Shown in pieces: positions 16,252 through 45,616 of a stretch of DNA of 61,828 nt. The stretch is from the NCBI GenBank assembly GCA_902590535.1, contig CACIXF010000004.1:1-61828 (forward strand), written 5' to 3'. The stretch's first letter is position 1. The number at the start of each line of letters is the position of its first letter. The notes under the pieces were generated by a model. It was not told the origin of the DNA. It did not search any database and saw nothing but the letters and a program-made list of their open reading frames with translations. A program made the translations under genes and the position numbers. The stretch comes from an uncultured Pelagibacteraceae bacterium (lineage in GTDB: Bacteria; Pseudomonadota; Alphaproteobacteria; Pelagibacterales; Pelagibacteraceae).

Positions 16252-17489
16252 TGTTTTTTATATACGGTATATTAACAAATATTTTATTTTTATTGTCACC
16301 AATAATTTTTGTTTTTAGAATTTTAAATAAAAAAGAAGACATAAATAGATTTCAAGAAAAATATTGTATTTATTCAAAGAAAAATTTTCAAAAAACAATA
16401 TGGTTTCATGCAGTAAGTGTTGGTGAATTAATGAGTATAATACCAGTTGTAAATAAAATGGAAAAAAATAAAAAAATAAAAAAAATAATCATAACCTCTT
16501 CTACAATTAGTTCGTCAAAAATTTTTAAAAAACAAAAATTTAAAAAAACAATTCATAAGTTTTTTCCTTTGGATACTAATTTTTTAACAAAAAAATTTAT
16601 CAATTTTTGGAAACCTGAAGTGGCAATTTTTGTAGATTCAGAAATTTGGCCAAATATGATAAAAAATTTAGAAAAACATCAAATTCCAATAATTTTATTA
16701 AATGCAAGATTTACAAGATCTAGTTTTAAAAAATGGTTGATTGTAAAAAGTTTTGCAAAAGAAATCTTTGGTAAGATCTCAATTGCTCTTCCTCAAAACA
16801 CAGAAACAAAAAAATATCTTAAAATCCTTGGTATAAAAAAAATTATTTCAGCAGGAAATATAAAATACTTCGGAGAAAAAATCCTCCTGAATAAAAAAAA
16901 TTTAGAATTATTCAGAAAGTTAAAAAAATTTAAAGTTTTATGTGCTGGTAGTACTCATGATGACGAAGAAATATTAATATCTAAATTACACATCGAATTG
17001 AAAAAATATTTACCTAATTTACTTACGGTTATAATACCGCGACACATTAATAGATCAGAAAATATAATTAATGATCTAGATAAATTTAAACTTAATGTGG
17101 TTAAGCACTCTACAAAACAAAAAATATCAAAAAAAACAGATATTTATTTGGTTGATACTTTTGGTGAAACAAAGAATTTTTATAATCTTTCAAACATTGC
17201 TTTTTTAGGAGGATCAATTGTGAAGCATGGAGGGCAAAATCCATTAGAGGCTGCTCGATTAGGTAATTATATTATAAATGGACCTAATATTAGTAATTTT
17301 TCAGAAATATACGACTATTTAAAAATAAATAAAATATCTTATACAACCTCAAATATTTTAAAAATGAGAGATATAGTTTTGTCAAAAATAAATAAAAAAC
17401 TTCCATTCAACAAAAGAAAAAAAATTTTTGATAATGGAAATAAAATTTTAAATAATAACGTAGGTATTATCGAAAAATATATCCAATGA
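16251..17489 (+). CDS. waaA: 3-deoxy-D-manno-octulosonic acid transferase
   Basis: WaaA (KdtA) adds Kdo sugars to lipid IVA at the inner membrane. Conserved glycosyltransferase motifs include VDSEIWPNM, LLNARFTRSSF, CAGSTHDDEE and GGSIVKHGGQNPLEAA. An N-terminal membrane anchor covers about residues 2-24. I place the start at the ATG whose A is the last base of the msbA stop (TGATG), rather than at the TTG one codon earlier, giving 412 residues. It overlaps lpxK by 4 bases. Long lysine-rich stretches reflect the AT-rich genome. Confidence 0.93.
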   Translation: MFFIYGILTNILFLLSPIIFVFRILNKKEDINRFQEKYCIYSKKNFQKTIWFHAVSVGELMSIIPVVNKMEKNKKIKKIIITSSTISSSKIFKKQKFKKTIHKFFPLDTNFLTKKFINFWKPEVAIFVDSEIWPNMIKNLEKHQIPIILLNARFTRSSFKKWLIVKSFAKEIFGKISIALPQNTETKKYLKILGIKKIISAGNIKYFGEKILLNKKNLELFRKLKKFKVLCAGSTHDDEEILISKLHIELKKYLPNLLTVIIPRHINRSENIINDLDKFKLNVVKHSTKQKISKKTDIYLVDTFGETKNFYNLSNIAFLGGSIVKHGGQNPLEAARLGNYIINGPNISNFSEIYDYLKINKISYTTSNILKMRDIVLSKINKKLPFNKRKKIFDNGNKILNNNVGIIEKYIQ

Positions 17490-41621: not shown

Positions 41622-43697
41622 ATGAAAGTACCACAACTTAAAAAAAAACTAGAGACAAAATCTTGTCACAATATAGAGTGGGAGGATAATTACAGCTGGA
41701 TACATCAAAAAAATATTTTAGAAGTTCTAAAAGATAAATCAAAACTAGACTCGGAAGTTAAAAAATATTTAGAAGAAGAAAACGCATACACCGATTATCA
41801 CCTAAAAGATACTAAAGATATTCAAAAAAAATTGTTTGATGAAATTAAAGGTAGAATAAAATTAGATGATGAGTCTTTACCTTATAAAGATCATACATAT
41901 GAGTATTGGACAAAAACTACAGCAACAGGAAACTATTCTATAAAACTTAGAAAAAAAATTGGTTCAGAAAATATAGAAGAAATATGGAATGGAGATAAGG
42001 AAAAAGAAAAACTCAAAACTGAATATTTTGGAGTTGGAGATTTAGAAGTAAGTAATAATGATAAATATCTAGGATACTCTTTAGATCTCAAAGGTTCTGA
42101 GTATTACACAATTTATTTAAGAGATATAAAAACAAACAAAATTATTTCAAAAGAAATCACAGAAACATCAGGGGGAATAACATTTAGTTTGGATGATAAA
42201 TATATTTTTTATTCTAAACTTGATGAAAATCATAGGGCAAGAACAATATATAGACACAAAATAGGAGATTTTGATAATGAGGATGAGTTAATATTTGAGG
42301 AGAATAGTGAAGCTTTTACAGTGGGAATTGGAAAAAGCTCAGATGAAAAATATTATTTCATAAATACTTCTGACCATAATACTTCAGAGCAATATTACTT
42401 TAAATCAGATGAATTAAATCCATCTCCAAAACTTATTATTAAAAGAGAAAGAGGTGTTTTGTATTCTGTTAATTCATGGGAAGGTAAATTTTATAATCAT
42501 ACAAATAAAAATTCTGAAGACTTTAAAATTGATATTTGTGACAATTTAGAAAATCAAAATTGGCAAACATATATTCCAGCAAAAGATGAAGTTTTAATTG
42601 GTGGATTAACATTCCTTAAAAATTGGATTATTCGTGGTGAAACATCAGATGCACTAGATAAATTATTTGTCAAAAATATTTCTACTAATATAGAAGAAGA
42701 ATTAATTTTTTCTGATGAAACTGTTTATGTTCCAGGAGTAAGCTTAACTCAAAAAGATAGAAATACTGATGAAGTTCATTTAGGATATTCATCACCTAAA
42801 ACTCCTTCTAGAGTATTTAAATATAATTTAGCAACAAAATCTAAAGAACTTGTTAAAGAACAAGAGATCCCATCTGGTCATAATAAAGATGACTATATTG
42901 TTGAGAGAGTTGAGTTTAAATCTCATGACGGAAGAATGGTTCCATTAACAATTACTAGACACAAAAAAACAAAAATTGATGGGTCTGCAAATGTTTTATT
43001 GTATGGATATGGGTCTTATGGAAATTCTATGTCCCCAAGTTTTTCTTCTACAAGACTAAGTCTTATAAATAGAGATATAATTTGGGCCACAGCTCATATC
43101 AGAGGTGGTATGGAGAAAGGTATGAAATGGTGGAAAGAGGGAAAATTAACAAACAAAAAAAACACTTTTGAAGATTATATTTACGCAGCAAAATATTTGA
43201 TCGAAAAGAATTATACGTCAAAAGGAAATATTATTGGAATGGGTGGATCAGCTGGAGGATTATTGATGGGAGCTGTTGTCAATCAATCTCCTGAATTATT
43301 TTTAGGAATTATTATGGCTGTTCCTTTTGTAGATTCTTTAACAACAAATCTAGATCATTCTTTACCTTTAACTGTTGGAGAATTTGACGAATTTGGAAAT
43401 GCAAAAGAGAATAAAGAACACTTTGATTATATTTTTTCATATGCACCCTACAACAATATTAAAAAAATGGATTATCCACATATTTTTATTACAACAAGTT
43501 TAAGTGATAATAGAGTTTTATTTGATGAACCTGCAAAGTTCACAGCAAAACTTAGAGACTATAAAACAGATAATAATTTACTTCTTTTAAAAACCGAAAT
43601 GAATGCTGGTCATGGTGGAAAATCTGGAAGAGATGGAGCAATAGAAGAAATTGCTATTGACTATGCATTTGCATTAAAGATTTCTAAAAAAATTTAG
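41622..43697 (+). CDS. Prolyl oligopeptidase family peptidase (oligopeptidase B-like)
   Basis: This is a serine peptidase of family S9A with an N-terminal beta-propeller and a C-terminal alpha/beta hydrolase. The catalytic triad is S543 (GMGGSAGG), D629 (SLSDNRV) and H664 (NAGHGGKSGR). YGYGSYG precedes the oxyanion region. The GGSAGGLLMG form and the R-preferring motifs suggest oligopeptidase B (ptrB), which cleaves after Arg/Lys. Length is 691 residues, typical. No signal peptide is seen, so it is probably cytoplasmic and acts on imported peptides. Confidence 0.92.
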   Translation: MKVPQLKKKLETKSCHNIEWEDNYSWIHQKNILEVLKDKSKLDSEVKKYLEEENAYTDYHLKDTKDIQKKLFDEIKGRIKLDDESLPYKDHTYEYWTKTTATGNYSIKLRKKIGSENIEEIWNGDKEKEKLKTEYFGVGDLEVSNNDKYLGYSLDLKGSEYYTIYLRDIKTNKIISKEITETSGGITFSLDDKYIFYSKLDENHRARTIYRHKIGDFDNEDELIFEENSEAFTVGIGKSSDEKYYFINTSDHNTSEQYYFKSDELNPSPKLIIKRERGVLYSVNSWEGKFYNHTNKNSEDFKIDICDNLENQNWQTYIPAKDEVLIGGLTFLKNWIIRGETSDALDKLFVKNISTNIEEELIFSDETVYVPGVSLTQKDRNTDEVHLGYSSPKTPSRVFKYNLATKSKELVKEQEIPSGHNKDDYIVERVEFKSHDGRMVPLTITRHKKTKIDGSANVLLYGYGSYGNSMSPSFSSTRLSLINRDIIWATAHIRGGMEKGMKWWKEGKLTNKKNTFEDYIYAAKYLIEKNYTSKGNIIGMGGSAGGLLMGAVVNQSPELFLGIIMAVPFVDSLTTNLDHSLPLTVGEFDEFGNAKENKEHFDYIFSYAPYNNIKKMDYPHIFITTSLSDNRVLFDEPAKFTAKLRDYKTDNNLLLLKTEMNAGHGGKSGRDGAIEEIAIDYAFALKISKKI

Positions 43698-43709
43698 TAC
43701 ATTTTAAAT

Positions 43710-43737
43710 CTTGAAAAAAACAAATTAATTCCCATAT
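43710..43737 (+). promoter_or_regulatory. Sigma-32 (RpoH)-type promoter of hsp20
   Basis: CTTGAA (43710-43715), a 16-base spacer and CCATAT (43732-43737, preceded by another C) form a heat-shock promoter. The boxes and spacing equal those upstream of groES. Transcription would start about 43744, immediately before the first leader hairpin. Confidence 0.8.
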
Positions 43738-43744
43738 AAATCCA

Positions 43745-43802
43745 GTAAGTCGCCTAATGGGGCTTACATAAATAAACTTGCTTAACAAAGGAGGATATTA
43801 TG
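43745..43802 (+). ncRNA. Candidate ROSE-like RNA thermometer in the hsp20 leader
   Basis: Two hairpins fill the roughly 56-base leader. The first (43745-43767) pairs GTAAGTC and CC with GG and GGCTTAC around a TAAT loop, with one bulged G (52). The second (43777-43794) pairs CTTGCTT with AAGGAGG around the loop AACA. It buries the whole Shine-Dalgarno sequence five bases before the ATG. It contains TTGCT opposite AGGAG with a central G-G mismatch, which is the signature of ROSE elements controlling small heat-shock genes in alphaproteobacteria. This reading is from the sequence by eye; no folding calculation was run. Confidence 0.7.
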
Positions 43803-44246
43803 ACAAGTAAGGATCTATCTATATTTAACTCACTTAGACCTTTTTCAATTGGTTTTGATGATATGTTTGACCAATTCGAAAGTATGTTGGGAAATAGCAA
43901 TTTGACGATGCAGTCAAATTATCCACCTTACAACATCCGAAAGACAGGTAAAGACAACTATGCAATTGAAGTAGCATTGGCTGGCTTTAGCAAAAAAGAC
44001 GTTGAGGTTGAATTCGAGGACAATTTATTAACCGTAAGAACAAAACAAGTTAATAAGTCTGAGGACAGTGATGTTAATGGAGAAATTATTCATAAAGGTA
44101 TTTCTCAAAGACAATTTGCAAGATCATTCACTATAGCTGATGATGTAAAAGTTAATGGTGCTGAGCTTAAAGATGGTCTTTTAACAATATCTTGTGAAAG
44201 AATAATTCCAGAACATAAAAAAAAGAAGCTTATTGAAATTAAATAA
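43800..44246 (+). CDS. Small heat-shock protein Hsp20 (IbpA family)
   Basis: This is an ATP-independent holdase of the alpha-crystallin family, 148 residues. Typical features are the N-terminal RPFSIGFDDMFDQFE, YPPYNIRKTGKDNYAIEVALAGF at the start of the alpha-crystallin domain, and the GISQRQFARSFTIADDVKVNGAELKDGLLTI beta strands. The C-terminal motif is IIPEHKKKKLIEIK. The start is fixed by a strong GGAGG Shine-Dalgarno sequence at 43790-43794. It has its own sigma-32-type promoter and a leader hairpin that may act as a thermosensor. Confidence 0.96.
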   Translation: MTSKDLSIFNSLRPFSIGFDDMFDQFESMLGNSNLTMQSNYPPYNIRKTGKDNYAIEVALAGFSKKDVEVEFEDNLLTVRTKQVNKSEDSDVNGEIIHKGISQRQFARSFTIADDVKVNGAELKDGLLTISCERIIPEHKKKKLIEIK

Positions 44247-44259
44247 GTCTTAAACCTTG

Positions 44260-44290
44260 CTTGTGGGGATTTCTCCCCACAAGTTTAAAT
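44260..44290. terminator. Bidirectional terminator between hsp20 and the purine permease gene
   Basis: A perfect 10-base-pair stem (CTTGTGGGGA / TCCCCACAAG, loop TTTC) spans 44260-44283. T-rich or A-rich flanks on both sides make it usable for both convergent genes. It is the most GC-rich short hairpin in this window. Confidence 0.85.
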
Positions 44291-44293
44291 TAA

Positions 44294-45616
44294 TTATTTC
44301 TTTGCCATTATAGCATTTAAAAAAAATGCTAGTAATCCAGCAGGTATAAGTCCAGTTGTTAATAGTAGTTTTAAACTTATTCCAAAATCTGGAATATTTT
44401 TCACAAAGTCTGGTAACAATGACATCCCAATTCCAAAAGACAAAGAAAGAGCTAAGATTAATAAATTTCTTTGATCCATTTCTGCCCTTGAAATCAATTT
44501 AATACCAGCAGCTACAATCATACCAAACATAATGATTGCTGCTCCACCAATCACAGACTCTGGCATTGCAGCGATTATTCCACCTAATTTTGGAAATAAT
44601 CCCATTAGAACCAAGGCTATTCCTGCAATAGTTCCAACGTGCCTACTTACCACACCTGTAAACGCAACTAGTCCAGCATTTTGTGAATAGGATGTATTTG
44701 GCATCGCATTAAATATTGCACCAAATGCAGTACCAACACCATCTGCCATAATTCCACCTGATATTTCTTTATCCGTTGCTTCTCGTTTAGCACCACCCAT
44801 TGTCGTAGCACTTATGTCTCCAATTGTTTCAATTGTTGTAACAACTGACATAAACAACATTAGAATTATTGCGCCAGGTACAAAATCAATTCCATATTGA
44901 AGTGGCATTGGAAATGCAAACCATGCTGCAGATGCAATTTTGCCATAGTTAACCATTCCTAGTGCTGCTGCAACTATGAAGCCAGCTACTATTCCAATTA
45001 AAATTGAGGCTGCAGAAGCCATTCCTTTTCCTCTAAGATTGAAAAAGATAGCAACTATGAACACTGAAGCGGCAACTGTTAAATGATTTGCATTTGCAAA
45101 GATTTCAGGTTTATTGTTCATTAACCATCCACCTCCACCAGCATACATAAAACCAACTTTAAGCAAACTAAATCCGATCATTAATACAACTATACCAGTG
45201 ACTAATGGTGGAAATAGATGCCTTATTGGTTTTAAAACTTTTCCAATAAAAATTTGAAAAATTCCTCCAATGAACGCAGCTGTAAATACCGCACCTAATC
45301 CTGCTGCTTTAAATGGTAGCATGATTGGTATAAATGCAAAACTTGTTCCTTGAACAATAGGAAGTCTTGCACCAATTTCTTTATATCCAACAGTTTGGAT
45401 AATTGTTGCAACTCCCGCAACAAACAAAGCCATTTGAATCAAAAATATTTTTTGTTCAGGCGTTTGACCAAAAACTCCAGCCACAATAATAGGAACCGTT
45501 ATATTACCAGCAAACATTGCTAGTACGTGCTGAATTCCCAAAGGTATGGATTTATTTAATGGAAGTTTTTTATCCGGACTGTTTGTAGAGCCCGCTTTTG
45601 TTTTTCTTGAAGCCAT
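44294..45616 (-). CDS. NCS2 nucleobase permease, probably xanthine/urate
   Basis: This is an inner-membrane symporter of the NCS2 (NAT) family with about 12-14 helices and 440 residues. The NAT signature is QNAGLVAFTGV (312-322), where Gly follows Thr. Uracil permeases normally have Thr-Arg in this position, whereas xanthine/urate permeases have Thr-Gly. The conserved Glu in TTIETIGDIS (263) and the TSFAFIP segment near 91 fit too. Neighbouring purine-catabolic genes support xanthine or urate as the substrate; this was not tested directly. The 138-base region upstream is listed separately. Confidence 0.87.
   Translation of the reverse strand: MASRKTKAGSTNSPDKKLPLNKSIPLGIQHVLAMFAGNITVPIIVAGVFGQTPEQKIFLIQMALFVAGVATIIQTVGYKEIGARLPIVQGTSFAFIPIMLPFKAAGLGAVFTAAFIGGIFQIFIGKVLKPIRHLFPPLVTGIVVLMIGFSLLKVGFMYAGGGGWLMNNKPEIFANANHLTVAASVFIVAIFFNLRGKGMASAASILIGIVAGFIVAAALGMVNYGKIASAAWFAFPMPLQYGIDFVPGAIILMLFMSVVTTIETIGDISATTMGGAKREATDKEISGGIMADGVGTAFGAIFNAMPNTSYSQNAGLVAFTGVVSRHVGTIAGIALVLMGLFPKLGGIIAAMPESVIGGAAIIMFGMIVAAGIKLISRAEMDQRNLLILALSLSFGIGMSLLPDFVKNIPDFGISLKLLLTTGLIPAGLLAFFLNAIMAKK

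Follow-up and report, generated by a model that had tools for sequence, protein, structure and literature searches.

How might a SAR11 bacterium adjust the output of its small heat-shock gene to temperature, and could the few bases of RNA ahead of hsp20 do part of the sensing? The locus that raises this question lies in the window, by which we mean the whole stretch of 61,828 nucleotides analysed here, from an uncultured Pelagibacteraceae bacterium. Here, we propose that the SAR11 hsp20 leader is very probably a short ROSE-type RNA thermometer, where the element is read from folding and from comparison among relatives, and where we infer thermosensing by analogy with characterised ROSE elements.

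Promoter, leader and predicted fold at the hsp20 locus

The features on which the argument depends are as follows, in window coordinates:

41622-43697: prolyl-oligopeptidase-like gene upstream of the promoter, named by eye
43710-43716, + strand: -35 box CTTGAAA of a sigma-32-type promoter, from reading the sequence
43731-43737, + strand: -10 box CCCATAT, after a 14-base spacer from the -35 box, from reading the sequence
43743-43745, + strand: predicted transcription start, placed by its distance from the -10 box
43745-43767, + strand: hairpin I, nine pairs with a bulged G at 43752 and the loop TAAT, from folding and covariation
43777-43794, + strand: hairpin II, CTTGCTT (43777-43783) against AAGGAGG (43788-43794) with an odd G at 43780, from folding and motif
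43800-44246, + strand: hsp20, 148 amino acids, Hsp20/alpha-crystallin (Pfam PF00011), IbpA-like, ATG at 43800

The hsp20 product matches PF00011 at 61.5 bits (cut-off 20.8), and its top NCBIfam match is IbpA, at 103 bits and below that model's cut-off of 212. It is the single hsp20 of its genome assembly (1.02 Mb in 32 contigs, 78% complete), in which one protein scores above the curated cut-off for RpoH. Both boxes, which were judged against the sigma-32 promoter consensus, both hairpins and the TTGCT and AGGAG strands lie exactly where the initial annotation had placed them, and its heat-shock promoter is borne out by relatives: a TTGA-like box begins 33-35 bases 5' of hairpin I in 170 of 177 hsp20 leaders, the distance from the -35 box to hairpin I being exactly 34 bases in 147 of them and the box being literally CTTGAAA in 150. 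A TTGA box is not found at that distance in five of the 177 (L040, L116, L125, L126 and L138), among which L040 ends at a contig edge, L116, L125 and L126 share genus g5, and L138 reflects a misreading by the script. With hairpin I as the anchor for 163 distinct leaders, conservation is seen in both boxes and in the hairpin, and not in the bases immediately 5' of it. A transcript starting at the foot of hairpin I would have a leader of about 56 bases in all, and the fixed distance between promoter and hairpin speaks against a start inside or after hairpin II. Beyond the gene, at 44260-44283, a perfect 10-base inverted repeat (CTTGTGGGGA-TTTC-TCCCCACAAG, followed by TTTAAATTAATT) lies between hsp20 and a convergent gene on the opposite strand, and is probably a terminator.

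Folding of 43744-43805 with RNAfold returns precisely hairpins I and II, as had been expected, with a minimum free energy (MFE) of -14.4 kcal/mol that is equalled or bettered in 2 of 200 shuffles of the same segment (z -2.81); hairpin I by itself is computed at -9.8 kcal/mol. In the predicted fold, TTGCT of hairpin II pairs with the hsp20 Shine-Dalgarno sequence AGGAG. Freeing AGGAG is computed to cost 8.7 kcal/mol at 4 C, 6.6 at 20 C and 4.0 at 37 C, and for L287, a leader that belongs to the Rfam family ROSE_3, the corresponding costs are 7.1, 5.8 and 4.4 kcal/mol. With 41 coding bases included, AGGAG has a mean unpaired probability of 0.15 at 4 C and 0.42 at 37 C, and the computed opening has no sharp step over this range. 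Of 300 leaders with the upstream bases shuffled, 22 hold AGGAG at least as tightly at 20 C. In 177 relatives, opening AGGAG at 20 C costs 5.6 kcal/mol in the median, with a range of 0.5-7.8, so that a few leaders look open. Energies of this kind would not by themselves prove a thermometer.

Two ideas about hairpin II were discarded along the way. It had seemed weaker in SAR11 than in Pseudomonas (-2.0 to -3.1 kcal/mol at 37 C against the -4.1 to -7.6 given in PMC3669281), a claim that was dropped since L287, a true ROSE_3 leader, comes out at -2.6 when computed likewise. An AU-rich extension of the hairpin in the cold state was also abandoned, its sequence not being preserved in relatives.

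Conservation and covariation of the two hairpins

The leaders compared were drawn from 80 named records plus further genomes of the same family. TYGCT followed by AGGAG at a gap of 5-9 bases is present in 176 of 178 Pelagibacteraceae hsp20 leaders (TTGCT in 172, TCGCT in 4), the exceptions being L163, which reads TGGAG, and L139, a divergent relative with 38% identity. Together with the predicted fold, this supports the claim that TTGCT stands opposite AGGAG and that hairpin II covers the ribosome-binding site. Over 68 bases, 156 of 177 leaders are distinct, and hairpin I forms nine of its nine pairs in 155 leaders, eight in 18 and seven in 4, counts that are flattered by taking the best pairing in each leader. 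Unpaired or poorly conserved leaders, which the initial annotation had named as the outcome that would count against it, were not encountered; those of the relatives are paired and conserved.

Taken alone, the short motif is not special in the window: TTGCT-N3-10-AGGAG occurs twice against 0.70 expected, and at least two occurrences are found in 17 of 100 shuffles. The other occurrence, at 17197-17211, is at chance level. A pattern of the TTGCTCTTCTAAAAGGAGT type gave 32 matches in ten genomes against 1 for its reversed control, and the form TTGCTCTTCTAAAAGGAGT(G/T)CCATG was also seen at a site other than hsp20 in three SAR11 genomes (G035:C1:1244649, G063:C1:1280044 and G026:C1:1265110).

Compensatory changes were counted on two of three alignments. 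The first, A1, holds 150 of the 156 distinct leaders (the near-identical L003, L012, L015, L016, L019 and L039 are omitted) and displaces hairpin II by one base in rows of the CCTTGCT type, for which reason it was not used for counts. A2 is a MAFFT alignment of 46 chosen leaders without the CCTTGCT type. A3 comprises 78 of 272 loci, picked for diversity or as heat-shock matches and including other Alphaproteobacteria and the CCTTGCT type; it was fitted to the structure of R1, the covariance model built from A2, and leans towards that structure. A second model, R2, was built from A3, and both models match their own seeds by construction.

Hairpin I has double changes in six of nine pairs on A2 (23 double-changed cells, where shuffles give 4.2 and slid partners 0 to 15) and in eight of nine pairs on A3, and it keeps its bulged G across the aligned leaders. 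On A3 the whole structure has 145 double-changed cells against 29.4 in shuffles. The compensatory changes anticipated among SAR11 relatives are thus present in hairpin I and absent from hairpin II, which has none among the 46 leaders of A2. Nor do its four core pairs have double changes among the 78 leaders of A3, where the outermost pair has 6 double-changed cells plus 23 unpaired and the innermost pair has 4. Part of the invariance of hairpin II on A2 is due to selection, as rows of the CCTTGCT type are absent from it. As judged from these alignments, the comparative proof of hairpin I, and of the unit as a whole, is strong, and that of hairpin II consists mainly of constancy; its core being nearly constant, the pairing of hairpin II rests on motif, energy and analogy.

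A central G-G pair in hairpin II had also been proposed. Such a register is possible, with 94.6% of A2 cells pairing, but pairing is better when the G is bulged (CUU-g-CUU with AAG-GAG), in which case 276 of 276 A2 cells pair and the variation from U to C preserves the pair (U-G to C-G). From these sequences, the G of TTGCT can either face a G or bulge in a shifted register.

Relation to known ROSE elements and competing readings

We call the leader ROSE-type because it lies between a heat-shock promoter and a small heat-shock gene (as judged from Pfam, the boxes and RpoH); because its 3'-proximal hairpin sets U(U/C)GCU against the Shine-Dalgarno sequence in 176 of 178 leaders, by predicted pairing; because the motif in those 176 contains a non-canonical G, as a G-G pair or a bulge; and because, where ROSE-type leaders have two to four hairpins with a structurally conserved upstream one, this leader has two, of which hairpin I covaries. 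The Rfam ROSE families do not recognise it at their thresholds. ROSE_3 (RF02523), which we take to be the family of the short ROSE element of Pseudomonas ibpA, scores the window's leader at 22.7 bits, with E 0.019 for the 501 bases searched, and because this is below the gathering threshold of 43, the leader is not filed under ROSE_3. A search of 20 loci with Rfam gave only two ROSE matches, L197 (ROSE_3, 28.6 bits) and L119 (ROSE_2, 22.8 bits), both sub-threshold, and none at E 5 for the window's own locus, while RF02523 run against 190 genomes of the class had sub-threshold matches in 5 and none in the listed SAR11 genomes G000 and G009. In a separate Rfam search of 15 loci, a ROSE match was obtained for L287 alone. 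This leader of an Hsp20 gene (by Pfam) outside the class scores 38.7 bits with R2 and 67.1 bits with ROSE_3 (gathering threshold 43), and, being in no seed, provides an out-of-sample link, though a single one, to a known ROSE family.

Like the classical elements known from rhizobia and from E. coli ibpA (RF00435 and RF01832), the SAR11 leader has a U(U/C)GCU hairpin over the Shine-Dalgarno sequence of small heat-shock genes. Classical elements are reported to have three to four hairpins, against two here (PMC3669281). The closer likeness is to the Pseudomonas ibpA thermometer as reported in the same paper, with which it has in common a sigma-32 promoter, only two hairpins, a GC-rich or stable hairpin I, and a hairpin II that sets U(U/C)GCU against the Shine-Dalgarno sequence of a small heat-shock gene (PMC3669281); an unpaired G in hairpin I is shared with the ROSE_3 consensus. 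Unlike the Pseudomonas element, the SAR11 leader is AT-rich, scores below the ROSE_3 gathering threshold, belongs to another lineage, SAR11 in the Alphaproteobacteria, and is described here from its sequence. The initial annotation was right about the two hairpins of a very short leader, but that layout has a reported precedent in Pseudomonas ibpA (PMC3669281). Probing, toeprinting and reporters are reported there to have found that hairpin II opens with temperature while hairpin I stays closed; that hairpin II became more stable, and expression and ribosome binding dropped, once the odd G was removed, by itself in P. aeruginosa and in combination with another change in P. putida; and that hairpin II alone remained temperature-responsive (PMC3669281).

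Cis-regulatory RNA candidates have been reported before in this lineage, as structured leaders in 'Candidatus Pelagibacter ubique', though those named in the abstract precede the genes of ribosomal proteins S2 and S12 and of a signal recognition particle protein or are a riboswitch (PMC2704228); the words 'heat shock', 'hsp' and 'ibpA' are absent from the main text of that paper (PMC2704228). In the open-access literature, covered mostly by titles and abstracts, neither a ROSE element nor any other RNA thermometer turned up for SAR11 hsp20. The SAR11 leader is a newly recognised ROSE-type element, missed by the Rfam models at their thresholds, in a two-hairpin layout that was already known.

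What else could such a leader do? It might be structured without sensing temperature, hairpin I stabilising the mRNA, hairpin II fixing a low and constant translation, and heat control being exerted by RpoH alone. The stable and covarying part is indeed hairpin I, the energies have no sharp melting and the shuffle control finds them unexceptional, yet the non-coding 5' strand TYGCT is retained in all but two of the 178 leaders, with a G that keeps the helix imperfect in every one of them, and a passive attenuator would have no need for U(U/C)GCU, reported as the thermosensing part in Pseudomonas (PMC3669281). We regard a purely passive leader as unlikely. Alternatively, Hsp20 might repress its own synthesis by binding the leader, with temperature titrating it onto unfolded proteins. 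The window's Hsp20 has GISQRQF at what we take to be the position corresponding to R93 of E. coli IbpA. That protein is reported to bind its own leader and to need Arg93 for this, a residue present in alphaproteobacterial IbpAs as well (PMC10474464), but a protein site alone would not demand pairing of the Shine-Dalgarno sequence. As the main switch, autorepression is very improbable, but it is compatible with a thermometer and may act alongside it. That the repeat works as a DNA operator or as an attenuator (terminator) is scarcely credible: hairpin I is an imperfect inverted repeat directly after the promoter, but its stem varies in sequence with pairing kept, a single pair taking as many as six standard types, which is not how a protein operator behaves; neither hairpin is followed by a T-run, and a simple scan of 43300-44600 on this strand found no terminator.

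Returning to the thermometer, the proposed mechanism is that RpoH would transcribe hsp20 and that the whole leader of about 56 bases would act as the sensor. In the cold, hairpin II would pair U(U/C)GCU with AGGAG and exclude the ribosome; the single bulged or G-G-mismatched G would weaken the helix, such that it opens gradually on warming and translation begins. Hairpin I, the stable covarying 5' stem, would probably fold first and protect or isolate the leader, with no melting of its own. We infer the repression, the melting and the temperature of melting, as well as the transcription start.

Related leaders in other genomes and before other heat-shock genes

Within the order, R1 was searched against 147 genomes, of which 94 belong to the window's family and 53 to a sister family (two of the 53 assigned there by label). 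At the window R1 scores 90.6 bits, high by construction for a seed, and at most 19.4 bits in the rest of that genome. A match at E 1.3e-8 or better is present in 90 of the 94 family genomes, the next match in any genome being at 4.7e-4, and hsp20 is present in all 90. No hsp20 was found in the four that lack a strong match (G001, G012, G032 and G230); these figures were counted by hand from two tables. In 20 of 20 genomes whose coordinates were compared by eye, the element adjoins hsp20. The sister family has weak matches in 33 of 53 genomes, and of 12 such sites inspected six precede hsp20 with TCGCTTAAGGAGG and hairpin I and six do not. The sister-family hsp20 leaders L256, L261 and L263-L266 carry TCGCTTAAGGAGG, with motif and Shine-Dalgarno sequence just two bases apart, and a hairpin I that differs in sequence; for L261, RNAfold predicts an AU-rich hairpin covering the Shine-Dalgarno sequence.

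Secondary R1 matches of 24-28 bits occur in Pelagibacteraceae at eight places (L253-L255, L258-L260, L271 and L272), none of which has a heat-shock gene downstream, and are taken as chance. Two of them, L254 and L255 (G051 and G093), are 28-bit matches ahead of a peroxiredoxin-like gene whose leader is identical in both genomes, and are probably chance too. A further R1 match, L211 (G314:C63:84295-84412), consists of the GC-rich hairpin GGCGGTCGCCTAATGGGGCCGCC and, after it, a run of eight T; we rejected it as a terminator-like site that resembles hairpin I by chance. A search in the order of G334 (two genomes) gave an extra match, L288, ahead of an open reading frame of 50 residues with no evident identity.

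Across 289 genomes of the class, 41 have an R1 match at E 0.1 or better, with E-values calculated per genome such that some chance matches are expected; of 30 loci inspected, 19 precede heat-shock genes and 11 do not. R2 was run on 385 genomes of the class and matches 31 of them at E 0.01 or better. All 30 loci inspected precede heat-shock genes (hsp20 in 20, rpoH in 5, dnaK in 5), 15 of them being R2 seeds or sites that coincide with seeds and the other 15 lying outside the seed set; four further matches are not among the 30. The downstream genes were named via NCBIfam or Pfam, by hsp20 coordinates, or by eye (L201). Among 299 genomes of the phylum, R2 has three matches: the window's genome, the alphaproteobacterium L284 (dnaK), and L287 outside the class.

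The two-hairpin module stands directly before rpoH in five alphaproteobacterial genomes of three families, at these locus coordinates:

L203: 1501-1571, - strand
L280: 1501-1574, + strand
L283: 1501-1570, + strand
L285: 1501-1572, - strand
L208/L277: 1501-1566, + strand

Before dnaK it is likewise present in five genomes, drawn from three families (L206, L213 and L286; L220; L284). L203, L206, L207, L208, L213 and L220 were found by R1 and then became seeds of R2, and L280, L283, L284, L285 and L286 are not seeds of R2. The MFE fold contains both hairpins in the rpoH leaders L280, L283 and L285 and the dnaK leaders L206, L213 and L286, and does not contain both in L203, L277, L220 and L284. 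Across the five rpoH leaders, double changes affect seven of the nine pairs of hairpin I and amount to 18 cells where shuffles give 6.6, though seven pairs are reached in 92 of 500 shuffles and the alignment is a fitted one with seeds in two of its five rows. The dnaK leaders L206, L213 and L286 have TTGCC instead of TTGCT. No ROSE family matched the rpoH and dnaK leaders among the 15 loci searched with Rfam, at E 2. Weaker leaders of similar kind were seen before clpB, at L221 and at the sub-threshold ROSE_3 match L181.

ABC transporter genes are reported to carry ROSE-like leaders (PMC11342760), and the E. coli rpoH thermometer is described as a different, larger one that extends into the coding region (PMC4166951). 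Searching the open-access literature by titles and abstracts, we found no alphaproteobacterial ROSE case on rpoH or dnaK. These leaders are a lead rather than a result about the window, and may be the larger finding. We give not quite an even chance to the broader idea that the module with the bulged G is an old, portable alphaproteobacterial thermosensor, placed on hsp20 in SAR11 and others and, in several small-genome lineages, on rpoH and dnaK, such that the heat-shock sigma factor itself would be ROSE-switched, with the SAR11 copy opening within sea temperatures.

In light of these results, covariance models can reveal ROSE-type leaders that the Rfam models miss, the rpoH and dnaK leaders included. 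SAR11 bacteria are among the most abundant marine cells. Oligotrophs with reduced genomes are reported to have relatively few transcriptional regulators (PMC13198564). If the hsp20 leader is a thermometer, a sensor of about 56 bases would let SAR11 read temperature directly at translation.
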